A DNA stretch of 64,000 nt from Pseudorhodobacter sp. MZDSW-24AT (GTDB lineage: Bacteria > Pseudomonadota > Alphaproteobacteria > Rhodobacterales > Rhodobacteraceae). Location: the NCBI RefSeq assembly GCF_002794355.1, contig NZ_PGOI01000013.1, positions 124,001 to 188,000 of the forward strand, in the 5' to 3' direction. The notes beneath the pieces were generated by a model. That model did not search any database. It had not been told where the DNA came from and saw only the letters and a program-made list of their open reading frames with translations. Positions 51,129 through 57,225 of the stretch are shown here, piece after piece; within the stretch, counting starts at the first letter, position 1, and each line of letters starts with the position of its first letter. Position numbers and translations under genes: made by a program.

Positions 51129-51151
51129 CATGAACATACACTCTGTTCATG
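51129..51151. promoter_or_regulatory. Dyad overlapping the radical-SAM start codon
   Basis: CATGAACA-N7-TGTTCATG is a perfect 23-base dyad whose last three bases are the ATG of the radical-SAM gene. A repressor bound here would block initiation. Alphaproteobacterial LexA sites use GAAC/GTTC units, but their canonical spacing and orientation differ, so identity of the regulator is open. Confidence 0.55.
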
Positions 51152-52378
51152 GCACAGAAAACTCTTCAGCAAAAACTGGCGATTCTCGCCGATGCGGCGA
51201 AATACGATGCCTCTTGCGCGTCTTCGGGCGGGGAAAAGCGGAACTCGCGCGATGGCAAGGGTCTGGGGTCGTCGGGCGGGTCCGGGATCTGCCACGCCTA
51301 TGCGCCAGACGGGCGGTGTATTTCCCTGCTCAAGATCCTGATGACGAATTTCTGCATTTACGATTGCGTGTATTGCGTCAACCGGGTCTCAAGTCACGTG
51401 CAACGCGCGCGCTTTACCGTCGACGAAGTCGTGCAGCTGACGGTGGAATTTTACCGGCGAAATTACATAGAAGGCCTGTTTCTGTCGTCGGGCATCATCC
51501 GCTCACCCGATGACACGATGGCCGATATGGTCCGCATCGCGCAGACACTGCGCGAAAGGGAAAACTTTCGGGGGTATATACACCTCAAAACCATTCCGGA
51601 CGCAGCGCCCGAGTTGATTGAAGCGGCCGGAAAATGGGCGGACCGCCTGTCGATCAATGTCGAACTGCCGACGGAACAAGCCCTGACAACGCTCGCGCCC
51701 GAAAAATCGGCGCAGACCATCCGCCGCGCGATGGCCGATGTGCGCAGCCGCCGCGAAGCCTCACAGGATGTCAGCCTGCGGGGAAAGCGGCCCACGCGTT
51801 TTGCCCCTGCGGGCCAGTCCACGCAGATGATCGTCGGGGCAGACAGCGCCACCGATGGCCAGATCCTCGGCACGGCGTCGCAACTCTATGGCTCTTACAA
51901 ACTGGGAAGGGTCTATTATTCTGCCTTTTCTCCCATCCCAGACAGTTCGCGCCTGCTGCCCCTGATCCGCCCCCCCTTGATGCGCGAGCACCGCTTGTAT
52001 CAGGCCGATTGGATGATGCGGTTCTACGGATTCTCGCATGATGAGATTGCCCCGAAGTCGGGCATGCTCGATCTGGCGATCGATCCCAAATTGGCTTGGG
52101 CCTTGGCCAACCGGCAGCATTTCCCGGTGGATGTGAACACGGCCCCGAAAGAAATGCTCTTGCGTGTTCCCGGGTTTGGGCCGCGCTCGGTGCAACGCAT
52201 GCTGACCGCACGGAAGCATCGCACCTTGCGTTATGAAGATCTGGTTCCGCTCGGCTGCGTCTTGCGCAGCGCCCGCCCTTTCATCTCCCTGCCCGGTTGG
52301 TCGCCGCGCGGCATGGTCGACGATGTCAATCTGCGCGCGCGCTTCGCGCCGCCGCCCGAGCAACTGTCTTTGTTCTGA
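51149..52378 (+). CDS. Radical SAM protein linked to uracil-DNA glycosylase
   Basis: 409 residues. The [4Fe-4S]-SAM motif is C69-x3-C73-x2-C76 in FCIYDCVYCVN. After the TIM-barrel part (LFLSSGIIRSPDDTMADMV; SINVELPTE) comes a C-terminal helix-hairpin-helix segment PVDVNTAPKEMLLRVPGFGPRSVQRML, a DNA-binding unit. This is the TIGR03916-type 'DNA modification/repair radical SAM' family, found next to the UDG-domain gene downstream, with which it overlaps by TGATG. The reaction catalysed is not established. Confidence 0.88.
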   Translation: MAQKTLQQKLAILADAAKYDASCASSGGEKRNSRDGKGLGSSGGSGICHAYAPDGRCISLLKILMTNFCIYDCVYCVNRVSSHVQRARFTVDEVVQLTVEFYRRNYIEGLFLSSGIIRSPDDTMADMVRIAQTLRERENFRGYIHLKTIPDAAPELIEAAGKWADRLSINVELPTEQALTTLAPEKSAQTIRRAMADVRSRREASQDVSLRGKRPTRFAPAGQSTQMIVGADSATDGQILGTASQLYGSYKLGRVYYSAFSPIPDSSRLLPLIRPPLMREHRLYQADWMMRFYGFSHDEIAPKSGMLDLAIDPKLAWALANRQHFPVDVNTAPKEMLLRVPGFGPRSVQRMLTARKHRTLRYEDLVPLGCVLRSARPFISLPGWSPRGMVDDVNLRARFAPPPEQLSLF

Positions 52379-53850
52379 TGCAGCAGATCCAGTTGCCAAA
52401 AATCGGAACCGTGGCTGCGTGGCGGTCACATGTGCGCAGGCTTGCGGCCGCGGGAACCCCCGCAGACCATGTTCTGTGGCAGGTAGGGACCGAAGGGACC
52501 GATCTTTTCACCGAAGCGGCGCCCGCGCCTGCACAGCCTCCGTCCGCGCGGCCCTCTGCGCCGCTCACGCTGTCACGCGACGCGCTGGTGGCAATCGAGA
52601 CGGCGCTGTGCCACTCTGACCCGCAGCGATTTGCACGCGCCTATGCCTTGGTTCTGCGGCTGTGGCAGGGTGAAATCCGCTGGGGCGATCGCTCCGATCC
52701 CGCTTTGCGCCGCCTGCTGGAGCAGGAAAAGGCGGTCCGGCGGGACATTCACAAGATGCACGCCTTTGTGCGCTTTCGCGAAGTGTCCCCCCCGGGGGCG
52801 GCGCGCCGCGCCTTTGCCGCGTGGTTTGAACCGGATCATCCGATCGTCGAGGCCGCGACGCCCTTTTTCGCAAAACGGTTTGGTGACATGGATTGGGTGA
52901 TCGCCACGCCAACCCTCACCGCGCGTTTCGAGGACGGCGCGCTCACCTTTCAGGAAACTGCAGATCGCGCTCCGCCGCCGGACGATACGACAGAAGCGCT
53001 TTGGTGCACGTATTTCTCCAGCATTTTCAACCCCGCGCGATTGATGGTCTCGGCCATGACCTCCGAGATGCCGCGCAAATACTGGAAAAACCTGCCCGAA
53101 GCCGCCTTGATCCCCGATCTCATCCGCACGGCGCCAACCCGCGCCAAGGCCATGCAGGACGCGATGCCCACGATCGCATCAGACCATGTCGCGCGCCTGC
53201 GCCCGCAACGCCCAGCTCTGGCGGCCGACATCGGCCTTGCGGATCTGAAACCAGCCCTTGATGCCTGCAGGCGGTGCCCGATCGGCGCCTGCGCCACCCA
53301 AGGCGTTGCCGGAGAAGGTCCACGCGGCGCGGCCTTGATGATTGTCGGAGAGCAGCCCGGCGACTCCGAAGATCTCGCCGGTCGGCCCTTGGTTGGTCCT
53401 GCGGGGCAGGTGTTCGACCGCTGCGCCCGCTCGGCCGGGCTCGACCGAAGCCTGTGCTACATCACCAATGCCGTCAAACATTTCAAATTCACCCCGCGCG
53501 GAAAAAAGCGCCTGCACCAGCGTCCAAACCAAGGCGAAGTTTCAGCCTGCAAATGGTGGCTTGATCTGGAACGCCGCGAAGTTGCGCCCAAGCTTCTGGT
53601 CGCGCTGGGCGCCACAGCGGCAGGGGCGCTGACGGGTTCAGATGGCCATCTTCTGGCCCGACGCGGCACCGTTGAAACCACCGCCGAAGGCCAACCCGTT
53701 CTGATCACGCTGCATCCCTCCTACATCCTGCGCCTGCCAGATCCGGTCGCCCGTGCGCGCGCCGAAGACTTTCTTGTGCAGGATCTGCGGCGCGCGCGAG
53801 AGCTCATCGCCCACCCGCCAGACGCGCAAGAGCATCCCACGGCGCGATAA
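52378..53850 (+). CDS. udgX: UdgX-type uracil-DNA glycosylase fused to DUF4130 domain
   Basis: 490 residues from the ATG at 52378. The N-terminal part (about 45-250) is the DUF4130 domain paired with radical-SAM genes. The C-terminal family-4/UdgX domain (about 285-480) has MIVGEQPGDSEDLAGRPLVGPAGQ, Cys residues around ACRRCPIGAC for an Fe-S cluster, and HPSYILRLPD. The UdgX-specific insertion is VKHFKFTPRGKKRLHQRP; H380 corresponds to the His that bonds covalently to uracil-excised DNA. It likely marks or seals uracil sites together with the radical-SAM partner. Confidence 0.88.
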   Translation: MQQIQLPKIGTVAAWRSHVRRLAAAGTPADHVLWQVGTEGTDLFTEAAPAPAQPPSARPSAPLTLSRDALVAIETALCHSDPQRFARAYALVLRLWQGEIRWGDRSDPALRRLLEQEKAVRRDIHKMHAFVRFREVSPPGAARRAFAAWFEPDHPIVEAATPFFAKRFGDMDWVIATPTLTARFEDGALTFQETADRAPPPDDTTEALWCTYFSSIFNPARLMVSAMTSEMPRKYWKNLPEAALIPDLIRTAPTRAKAMQDAMPTIASDHVARLRPQRPALAADIGLADLKPALDACRRCPIGACATQGVAGEGPRGAALMIVGEQPGDSEDLAGRPLVGPAGQVFDRCARSAGLDRSLCYITNAVKHFKFTPRGKKRLHQRPNQGEVSACKWWLDLERREVAPKLLVALGATAAGALTGSDGHLLARRGTVETTAEGQPVLITLHPSYILRLPDPVARARAEDFLVQDLRRARELIAHPPDAQEHPTAR

Positions 53851-55519: not shown

Positions 55520-56130
55520 GGAAAGATCGCCGAGGCGCTGAACTTTGACAAAGTCCCCGGCCCACGTGGCGGCTTGTGGGGCACTTCCACCAGTCTTCGT
55601 AACCGCAACGACGAGACCGGCATCTTGAACACGAGCTCTATGTGGGCCGCCTCGTCTGGAACCGACTTCATTTCAGCAAGGATCCGGATACCGGGAAGCA
55701 GCACGCGCGGCTGAACCCGGAAGACCGCGTCACCAAGGGGCCAATGGCACATCCGCGGATCATCGACGACACCCTCTGGGACCAAATGAAGGCGCGCCAG
55801 GGCGCGATGGAGACCAAGGACACAGATGTGCCGATGAGGGACCGGCGCCGACCAAAGTTTCTCTTCTTCGGCCTGATGGCCTGCTGTTGCTGCGGCGGCA
55901 GGTTCTCAAACGTGCCCAAGGACGGCTTCGCCTGCTCCACCGCCCGGAAGAAGGCCAGAGCGGTCTGCACCAACGTGGCAGTGATCAAGCAGGCCAAATT
56001 GGAAGCCCGGGTGCTGCTTGCGCTGGAACATCATCTGATGGACGAAGAGGCGGTGCAGATCTTATGCGAGGAATATGCGGTCAGACCCGACGCCTGCGCT
56101 CGGCCTGCGGATTGCCAGTGCATGCTGTGA
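55520..56130 (+). pseudogene. Large serine recombinase fragment, frameshifted
   Basis: The central and C-terminal parts of a resolvase/recombinase-domain protein are readable: [18 protein letters not shown] and [11 protein letters not shown] in one frame, then [19 protein letters not shown], a zinc ribbon (ACCCCGGRF, CSTARKKARAVC) and LLALEHHLMDEE in the next. A single missing base near 55634 (AACACGAG for the expected AACAACGAG) breaks the frame. The N-terminal catalytic serine domain is absent. It joins the cysA remnant directly, suggesting deletion after integration. Confidence 0.8.
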
Positions 56131-56375: not shown

Positions 56376-57225
56376 GGTTCCAGACTCATTGATTTTCATC
56401 GCCACAAGAGTACGTTGGCCGCATGAGCGATGGCTGAGAGGAACAGCGTCGGGCACCTTTAATAGCGCGTTGCGACGCGCCACAAGACCCTTAACTTGGC
56501 GAACATGATATCGATGCGACTGCGCCGTTCATAGCAGCGCTTGTCGTAGCCGATCGCCGTGCCGCGTGACTTCCGACCCAAAATACAGGCGTATATTCCC
56601 TTGTTTTTCAATGCGTCTCTGAACCAATCCGCATCATAGCCCCACTCGGCGATAGTCCAGTCGGAAACTGCCAGGCTGCTCAGCATGGCCGCGGCCCCAG
56701 TGTCGTCGCTGACCGCGCCTGCCGACATAAAGAGCCGGATGGGCCGCCCTGTGGCATCTGTTAAAGCGCACAACTTGGTGTTGAGCCCGGCCTTCGTCCG
56801 GCCGATCAGGCGCCTACGCCCCCCTTTTTGACCCGCAGGCTCGAGGCCGTGGGGTGGGCTTTCAGATGGGTGGCATCGATTATGATGGCCTTCTGCTCGG
56901 TGCCTTCGATAGCCAGGCCTTCCATCATCCGGGCGAAGATCCCCATGTCGCTCCACCGCTTCCAACGATTGTAGAGCGCCTTCGGCGGGCCATATCCCCT
57001 CGGCGCGTCACATCAACGCAACCCATTACGTTTGATTAAAATTACCCCACTCAACAGGCGCCGTTCGTCAGCCCTTGGCTTGCCGTGGGACCTGGGAAAG
57101 AACGACCGACGCCGGTCCGTCTGCACGTCGGTCAGCCAGAAAAGATTGCTCATCATTGCCCCCACAGTTCGGAAGCGTGATCCATGCAGCCAGCGCAACC
57201 GCAAACGGATTAATGGGTCCTAACC
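56376..57225 (-). mobile_element. Decayed IS5-family (IS427-like) insertion sequence
   Basis: A transposase pseudogene is bounded by imperfect inverted ends: GGTTCCAGACTCATTGAT at 56376 and, on the other strand from 57225, GGTTAGGACCCATTAAT. The length of about 850 bases fits the group. Boundaries are approximate; no clear target duplication was found. The gap before it (56131-56375) shows no gene. Confidence 0.65.
56396..57156 (-). pseudogene. IS5-family transposase, two-ORF type with nonsense mutations
   Basis: The first part, from MSNLFWLTDVQTDRRRSFF through GKPRADERRLLSGV, is cut by TGA where related proteins have Trp (LRWRDAP). It resumes as GPPKALYNRWKRW ... IIIDATHLKAHPTASSLRVKKGG. 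The second part is shifted at an AAAAAGGGGGG stretch, the usual programmed frameshift place: LIGRTKAGLNTKLCALTDATGRP ... RGTAIGYDKRCYERRSRIDIMF. It then meets TAA in VATRY*RCP. It is probably inactive. Confidence 0.8.

Follow-up and report, generated by a model that had tools for sequence, protein, structure and literature searches.

A 64,000-nucleotide stretch of Pseudorhodobacter sp. MZDSW-24AT (contig NZ_PGOI01000013.1, positions 124,001 to 188,000; the whole stretch is referred to as the window) was analysed for an overlapping gene pair at 51149–53850 (+ strand) that encodes a radical S-adenosylmethionine (radical-SAM, rSAM) protein and a DUF4130-UdgX fusion protein. The pair very probably represents a module of the damage response in which rSAM + DUF4130 form the core and a covalent uracil-DNA anchor is optional, because rSAM and DUF4130 were found together in 56/56 rSAM genomes, LexA-type boxes were located upstream in 122/136 loci, DnaE2 adjoined the pair in 11/136 loci and a ligase-associated exonuclease in 6/136, the UdgX trap residue H380 was kept in 112/113 UdgX rows, and SOS control of such pairs has been published. 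The architecture, the co-occurrence, the conserved active sites, the LexA boxes of relatives and the optional UdgX were all read from sequence. The gene pair itself, which had been noted in an original prediction made from the DNA letters, was confirmed as a real observation, and the interpretation placed on it was partly supported.

Both open reading frames (ORFs) are intact on the + strand (51149–52378, 409 aa; 52378–53850, 490 aa from the ATG at 52378) and overlap, as originally described, by one base, the A closing the TGA of the first gene being the A of the ATG of the second. The first protein was assigned to TIGR03916 with 576.4 bits (curated NCBIfam cut-off 343.5) and to Pfam Radical_SAM with 35.6 bits. 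In the second, the predicted N-terminal DUF4130 domain (residues 1–243; 52378–53106, + strand) was recovered by TIGR03915 (183.3 bits, cut-off 112.25, over residues 10–242) and PF13566 (120.8 bits, cut-off 27), and the UdgX domain (residues 244–472; 53107–53793, + strand) by TIGR03914 (295.4 bits, cut-off 189.95) and by alignment to UdgX chains of M. smegmatis (MsmUdgX; E about 1e-46). All three linked NCBIfam families (TIGR03916/TIGR03915/TIGR03914, named rSAM_link_UDG, SAM_7_link_chp and UdgX) scored well over their cut-offs for the pair, which agrees with them in order and in domain make-up, and the window copy differs by an altered LexA-type site. The domains and the active-site His had been read correctly. 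The pair is already classified, being named by NCBIfam and listed in SOS-regulon papers; neither the family nor its connection with the SOS response is new, and the window pair is a further member. The rSAM family TIGR03916 is presumably the same as COG4277. In the accessible part of PMC13212565, the TIGR accessions of these families appear as a mere listing. Four findings go beyond the cited literature, as far as its available text extends: UdgX is optional, H380 is kept even where iron–sulfur (Fe-S) ligands are missing, the rSAM protein has extra conserved cysteines, and the model of DUF4130 is DHH-like.

Co-occurrence was analysed in 249 Pseudomonadota genomes, in which TIGR03916, TIGR03915 and TIGR03914 were above cut-off in 56, 59 and 55, respectively. 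The two parts of the pair co-occurred: every rSAM genome contained DUF4130 (Fisher p 1.2e-52, ancestry ignored). UdgX was present in 43 of these rSAM genomes and missing from 13, and 12 genomes contained UdgX without rSAM. Gene order was examined in 136 loci, comprising the window, 55 rSAM loci from the same genome set and 80 loci from GTDB species genomes (the best 80 of 585 confirmed matches; those titled with a class were all Pseudomonadota). DUF4130 was located downstream of rSAM on the same strand in 136/136, mostly directly and in a few with genes inserted, and UdgX was seen in 113, missing in 22 and cut by a contig end in one (L052). Absence was scored from an ORF ending at most 57 residues past the DUF4130 domain, with 3–7 kb read beyond it and no best hit downstream; in tblastn searches for the missing UdgX the query rows still contained DUF4130 sequence, so that matches landed on DUF4130. 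Four further loci with rSAM + DUF4130 and no UdgX (L173, L174, L203 and L204) were added to the 136 to give the 140 rows of the rSAM alignment and tree. Beyond Pseudomonadota, the analysis covered control genomes and the loci L174, L203 and L204. The tree was built by a quick method, carried a long-branch warning for L174, L203, L204 and L031, and had L052 scored as UdgX-free; on it the UdgX label required 13 gains or losses, of which starred branches forced 12, and when labels were shuffled about 25 changes were needed. On the sequences compared, the core is rSAM + DUF4130, and UdgX is an optional module that comes and goes on this stable core, as follows from the 13 changes on the tree. This tells which complex to purify first, and the UdgX-free members are natural controls for the contribution of the covalent trap. 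The rSAM-less DUF4130 genes (L086, L087 and L088, in genomes G174, G185 and G233), with UdgX in two, are exceptions to obligate pairing.

The original prediction presupposed that a covalent uracil-DNA trap is required for the radical reaction, a premise found to be wrong, given the UdgX-less genomes and loci above. UdgX-less loci keep the same conserved rSAM residues, and the radical step is therefore independent of the trap. These counts also bear on the idea that the rSAM protein resolves the covalent adduct of UdgX with DNA and so releases the trap, its radical being directed at the H380-linked sugar. A covalent DNA-protein link must be removed, and DUF4130, the obligate partner of rSAM, has UdgX fused to it in 43/56 rSAM genomes; however, with UdgX missing from 13/56 rSAM genomes and 22/136 loci whose rSAM residues are still conserved, and with UdgX present in 12 genomes without rSAM, adduct resolution is therefore neither the ancestral nor the sole role, and this idea is the least probable of those considered here. 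Replacement of a missing family-1 Ung by UdgX was rejected: Ung was found in 26/43 rSAM genomes with UdgX and in 12/13 without (Fisher p 0.042, lineage-confounded), and G164 has neither. The Ung genomes counted were 130, consisting of 127 above cut-off and 3 with long sub-cut-off matches. The window genome (G000) gave no match to family-1 Ung (TIGR00628). Among control genomes, those of Caulobacter, Bacteroides ihuae and Thermotoga gave rSAM matches, of which two were above cut-off, and those of Caulobacter and B. ihuae gave DUF4130 matches. This damage-linked family is present in 56/249 sampled Pseudomonadota genomes and is also matched in B. ihuae. Within the genus of the window, TIGR03916 was patchy (3/16 genomes, six of the 16 being <90% complete or >5% contaminated).

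In the rSAM protein, the Cys triad named in the original prediction was retained as C69-X3-C73-X2-C76 (codons within 51353–51376, + strand), each Cys being present in 140/140 rows. Three more conserved cysteines, C23 (139/140, one gap), C48 and C57 (both 140/140), were located upstream (51215–51319, + strand), and H49, H145, K147, R166, N170 and E172 were likewise invariant in all rows. The number of conserved cysteines, six, would allow two Fe-S clusters. Sequence comparison with solved structures was weak (ThiH, E 0.002). The predicted model (mean pLDDT, a per-residue confidence score, 76.9; poor around residues 20–60) was nearest to the folds of HydE, lipoyl synthase, BioB and HydG (Z 16.6–17.6 over 214–226 residues). 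The best structural rows, HydE, biotin synthase and lipoyl synthase (Z 17.6, 17.0 and 17.3), differ from the window protein in that identity is 11–17%, the helix-hairpin-helix (HhH) region past residue 293 is left uncovered by most rows and the substrates are unrelated. The three extra cysteines and the nearest folds HydE, lipoyl synthase and BioB would suit a radical enzyme that modifies DNA or nucleotides outside repair, for instance by sulfur insertion via an auxiliary cluster on C23/C48/C57. Lipoyl synthase carries an N-terminal auxiliary-cluster motif CX4CX5C, which is not matched by the C23-X24-C48-X8-C57 spacing; moreover, the C23–C57 region is low in model confidence, and the presence of SOS boxes and of repair genes nearby speaks for repair. 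A modifying enzyme is very unlikely.

Few radical-SAM enzymes on DNA lesions are known to us, spore photoproduct lyase (SPL, SplB) being the textbook case; the Cys that SPL uses as H donor is conserved and lies downstream of its triad. The window rSAM resembles SplB in being a radical-SAM protein with a CX3CX2C motif and a putative DNA substrate. An SPL-type direct reversal of an ultraviolet photoproduct, with UdgX merely clearing deaminated cytosines at the same sites, would agree with the SOS boxes upstream, with an HhH of DNA-binding type, and with the accessible part of PMC3765255, in which DUF4130 adjoins SplB-like rSAM proteins and uracil-DNA glycosylases (UDGs). Such a reversal is nevertheless unlikely. 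In the window family no Cys past the triad is conserved, and three are conserved upstream instead: the first Cys column past C76 is 106, occupied in 15/140 rows, and no later column exceeds 15/140. In addition, TIGR03916 was the only NCBIfam family returned for the rSAM protein at E up to 1e-3, and PMC8565304, in the text available, handles SplB (COG1533) apart from the COG1573-COG4277 pair. SPL was not named among the structure matches listed for the rSAM model, which is not evidence of absence.

The sequence hallmarks of UdgX were present in the second protein: motif A GEQPGD (residues 324–329; 53347–53364, + strand), R378, H380 and HPSYILR (residues 446–452). H380 (53515–53517, + strand), which had been proposed as the covalent-link His, lies in GKKRLH, and its counterpart in the aligned MsmUdgX chains is the GKRRIH His. 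The sole exception to H380 among the 113 UdgX rows was L127, altered in motifs A and B too; Q326, equivalent to UdgX Q53, was found in 110/113 rows and K367 and R378 in 113/113. MsmUdgX shares the GEQPG motif A, the R-loop R and H and the HPS..LR motif B with the window domain, but is a stand-alone protein (about 209–229 residues in structures), whereas the window UdgX is fused to DUF4130 and paired with rSAM. At least one of the Fe-S ligands C297, C300 and C391 was missing in 15 UdgX rows, some of them doubtful (in L045 UdgX is in a separate frame, and L158 is altered at its end), and H380 was kept in 15/15; the ligand state changed 5 times on a tree built with the L204 row in the wrong frame. 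Since H380 persists in all 15 ligand-deficient rows, the Fe-S ligands look less strictly conserved in these alignments than the trap residue. From the presence of H380, the window UdgX is predicted to link covalently to the apurinic/apyrimidinic (AP) site after uracil excision. In the available portion of PMC10359453, the Q53A variant of MsmUdgX left complex formation unaltered, and UdgX acts without turnover. In two Paracoccus loci (L112, L118), UdgX has a family-4-like motif A, GEAPG, and retains the R-loop His.

A base-excision system for uracil or for misincorporations by error-prone polymerases, in which excision is followed by modification or correction of the base or sugar by the rSAM protein, would be in line with the UDG-based excision system within the SOS response that is proposed in the accessible part of PMC8565304, and with DnaE2 adjoining the pair. 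The lack of UdgX turnover in the portion of PMC10359453 cited above and the 22/136 loci without UdgX argue against such a system, which we regard as distinctly unlikely.

The predicted model of the DUF4130 part (pLDDT 86.0) resembled DHH-DHHA1 folds. With Foldseek, no match was obtained at E up to 0.001, the top match being a DHH-type PAP phosphatase (E 2.1e-3). In a second structural comparison, 48/50 rows were DHH or DHHA1 proteins as classed by title (RecJ, Cdc45, NrnA, family-II pyrophosphatases, AlaRS C-Ala), with Z 4.2–8.0, a range flagged by the comparison tool as possibly a common arrangement. Pfam DHH gave no match up to E 10 for the DUF4130 proteins of the window and of four other loci, and profile comparison with RecJ (hhalign; RecJ profile of 9 rows only) gave Prob below 1%, so that homology of DUF4130 to DHH proteins by sequence was rejected as unsupported. 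The DHH motif is D-x-D-x-D-G. After the first strand of DUF4130, D-G-[ST]-[YF]-E-G was found in L174 and L203, D-K-S-F-D-G in L204 and D-G-S-M-V-G in L173, and the window protein is without a motif of this D-G type; the motif in these four could be a remnant of the DHH motif, which is a lead and not membership. Judged from the model, DUF4130 is likely a non-catalytic DHH-like (RecJ/Cdc45-type) DNA-holding domain with no active site.

Regulation was analysed in up to 110 bp upstream of the 136 loci. GAACN7GAAC or GTTCN7GTTC was found in 108 and CTGTN8 followed by ACAG, AAAG or CCAG in 14, and neither was found in 14 including the window. By hand count, the GAAC/GTTC type was present in 108/112 alphaproteobacterial loci and the CTGT type in 14/24 others. 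The strict motifs occurred in 0.3–1.1% of random 290-bp stretches from the same loci, a control that covers the strict motifs and not the looser CTGT forms, and the box was frequently 26 bp ahead of the aligned start. DNA damage probably switches the pair on in most relatives, as judged from these boxes. In the window, the start codon is immediately preceded by GAACATACACTCTGTTC (51132–51148, + strand), an altered LexA-type site that stands where relatives have GAACN7GAAC and in which the first half GAAC is kept and the second is changed; SOS control of the window copy is doubtful because one half of its own site is broken. Intact boxes were found in two loci of the same genus (L230, L231) and in a 79%-identical Thioclava copy (L175), and recA of the window genome has GAACACTACGCGAACA upstream. 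SOS control of the UDG operon COG1573-COG4277 is reported for Bacteroidetes in the available text of PMC8565304, which also cites it, second-hand, for Verrucomicrobia and Alphaproteobacteria (Caulobacter). The accessible parts of two other papers describe probable LexA control of the Clostridium rSAM pair CAC3343-CAC3344 (PMC3828012) and a rise of the rSAM gene upon desiccation in Acinetobacter Tol 5 (PMC13130816). Four loci without a CTGT/GAAC box (L054, L055 and, from Xanthomonas, L149 and L162) share a TCTCA-N5-TGAGA palindrome before the start, perhaps reflecting another LexA specificity. In L203, the gene immediately ahead of rSAM-DUF4130 (303–929) codes for a LexA-like protein (TIGR00498 69.7 bits, under the cut-off of 110.95).

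For the full mechanism we propose the following, with slightly less than even confidence. A damaged pyrimidine in DNA would be the target of the radical chemistry of the rSAM/HhH subunit, to which DUF4130 would present the lesion while holding the DNA. UdgX, fused to DUF4130 in most proteobacterial members including the window, would find uracil (deaminated cytosine, also inside photodimers), excise it and stay bonded via H380 to the abasic sugar, anchoring the module. SRAP/HMCES proteins cover AP sites covalently in the damage response, via a Cys to the AP aldehyde; by analogy, the anchored UdgX may shield the AP site during the action of the core, of recombination or of translesion synthesis, although its domain is unrelated and its link would be made by His to C1'. 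In a narrower version, which is improbable, C23/C48/C57 of the rSAM protein would bind an auxiliary Fe-S cluster, DUF4130 would be a RecJ/Cdc45-like DNA clamp without catalytic activity, the two would form a radical DNA-repair class apart from SPL, and UdgX would be a suicide anchor and AP-site shield repeatedly gained and lost by lineages.

Several results weigh against the damage-response module and its mechanism. The HhH DNA-binding unit ascribed to the first protein was matched by Pfam HHH_3 (residues 326–357; 52124–52219, + strand) at 20.7 bits and E 4e-4, below the gathering score of 27, so that the assignment is weak on Pfam alone. The DHH likeness of DUF4130 is middling in Z and without sequence support, and DUF4130 was found without rSAM in 3/59 DUF4130 genomes. 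The pair has no fixed neighbour, the biggest neighbour cluster spanning 12/136 loci, and the window copy has no intact LexA box upstream. A literature search on the rSAM and DUF4130 parts found no biochemistry, in agreement with the earlier statement that the radical chemistry of the pair is not established; a search joining UdgX with radical SAM found nothing.

The DnaE2 and exonuclease genes adjoining the pair were identified in 17 loci scanned from neighbour clusters, with NCBIfam confirmation for three of the DnaE2 and one of the exonucleases. In four loci (L051:6425–6970, L053:3932–4585, L057:8085–8528 and L163:9288–9797), a gene for a hemerythrin HHE-domain protein (PF01814) lay between rSAM and DUF4130-UdgX, which may connect the radical enzyme with oxygen or iron. 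A helicase (Helicase_C_2, DEAD_2) followed DUF4130 in L174. A defence system was rejected, as neither protein matched any PADLOC family at E up to 1e-3. A phage gene was also rejected: rSAM matches were found in 10/50,697 phage records, and the four inspected were L173, with bacterial glyS, glyQ and aroE neighbours, and three unannotated faecal contigs. The window DUF4130 part had no match in these phage records, and 2 loci matched in IMG/VR. Among plasmids, an rSAM relative was found in 158/72,556 records, 58 of them from Phaeobacter, and the module is often plasmid-borne in Rhodobacterales. Downstream of the window pair, fragments of a serine recombinase (PF13408, PF07508) and of a DDE transposase (PF01609, just below cut-off) were located at 55642–56127 (+ strand) and 56459–56962 (− strand).

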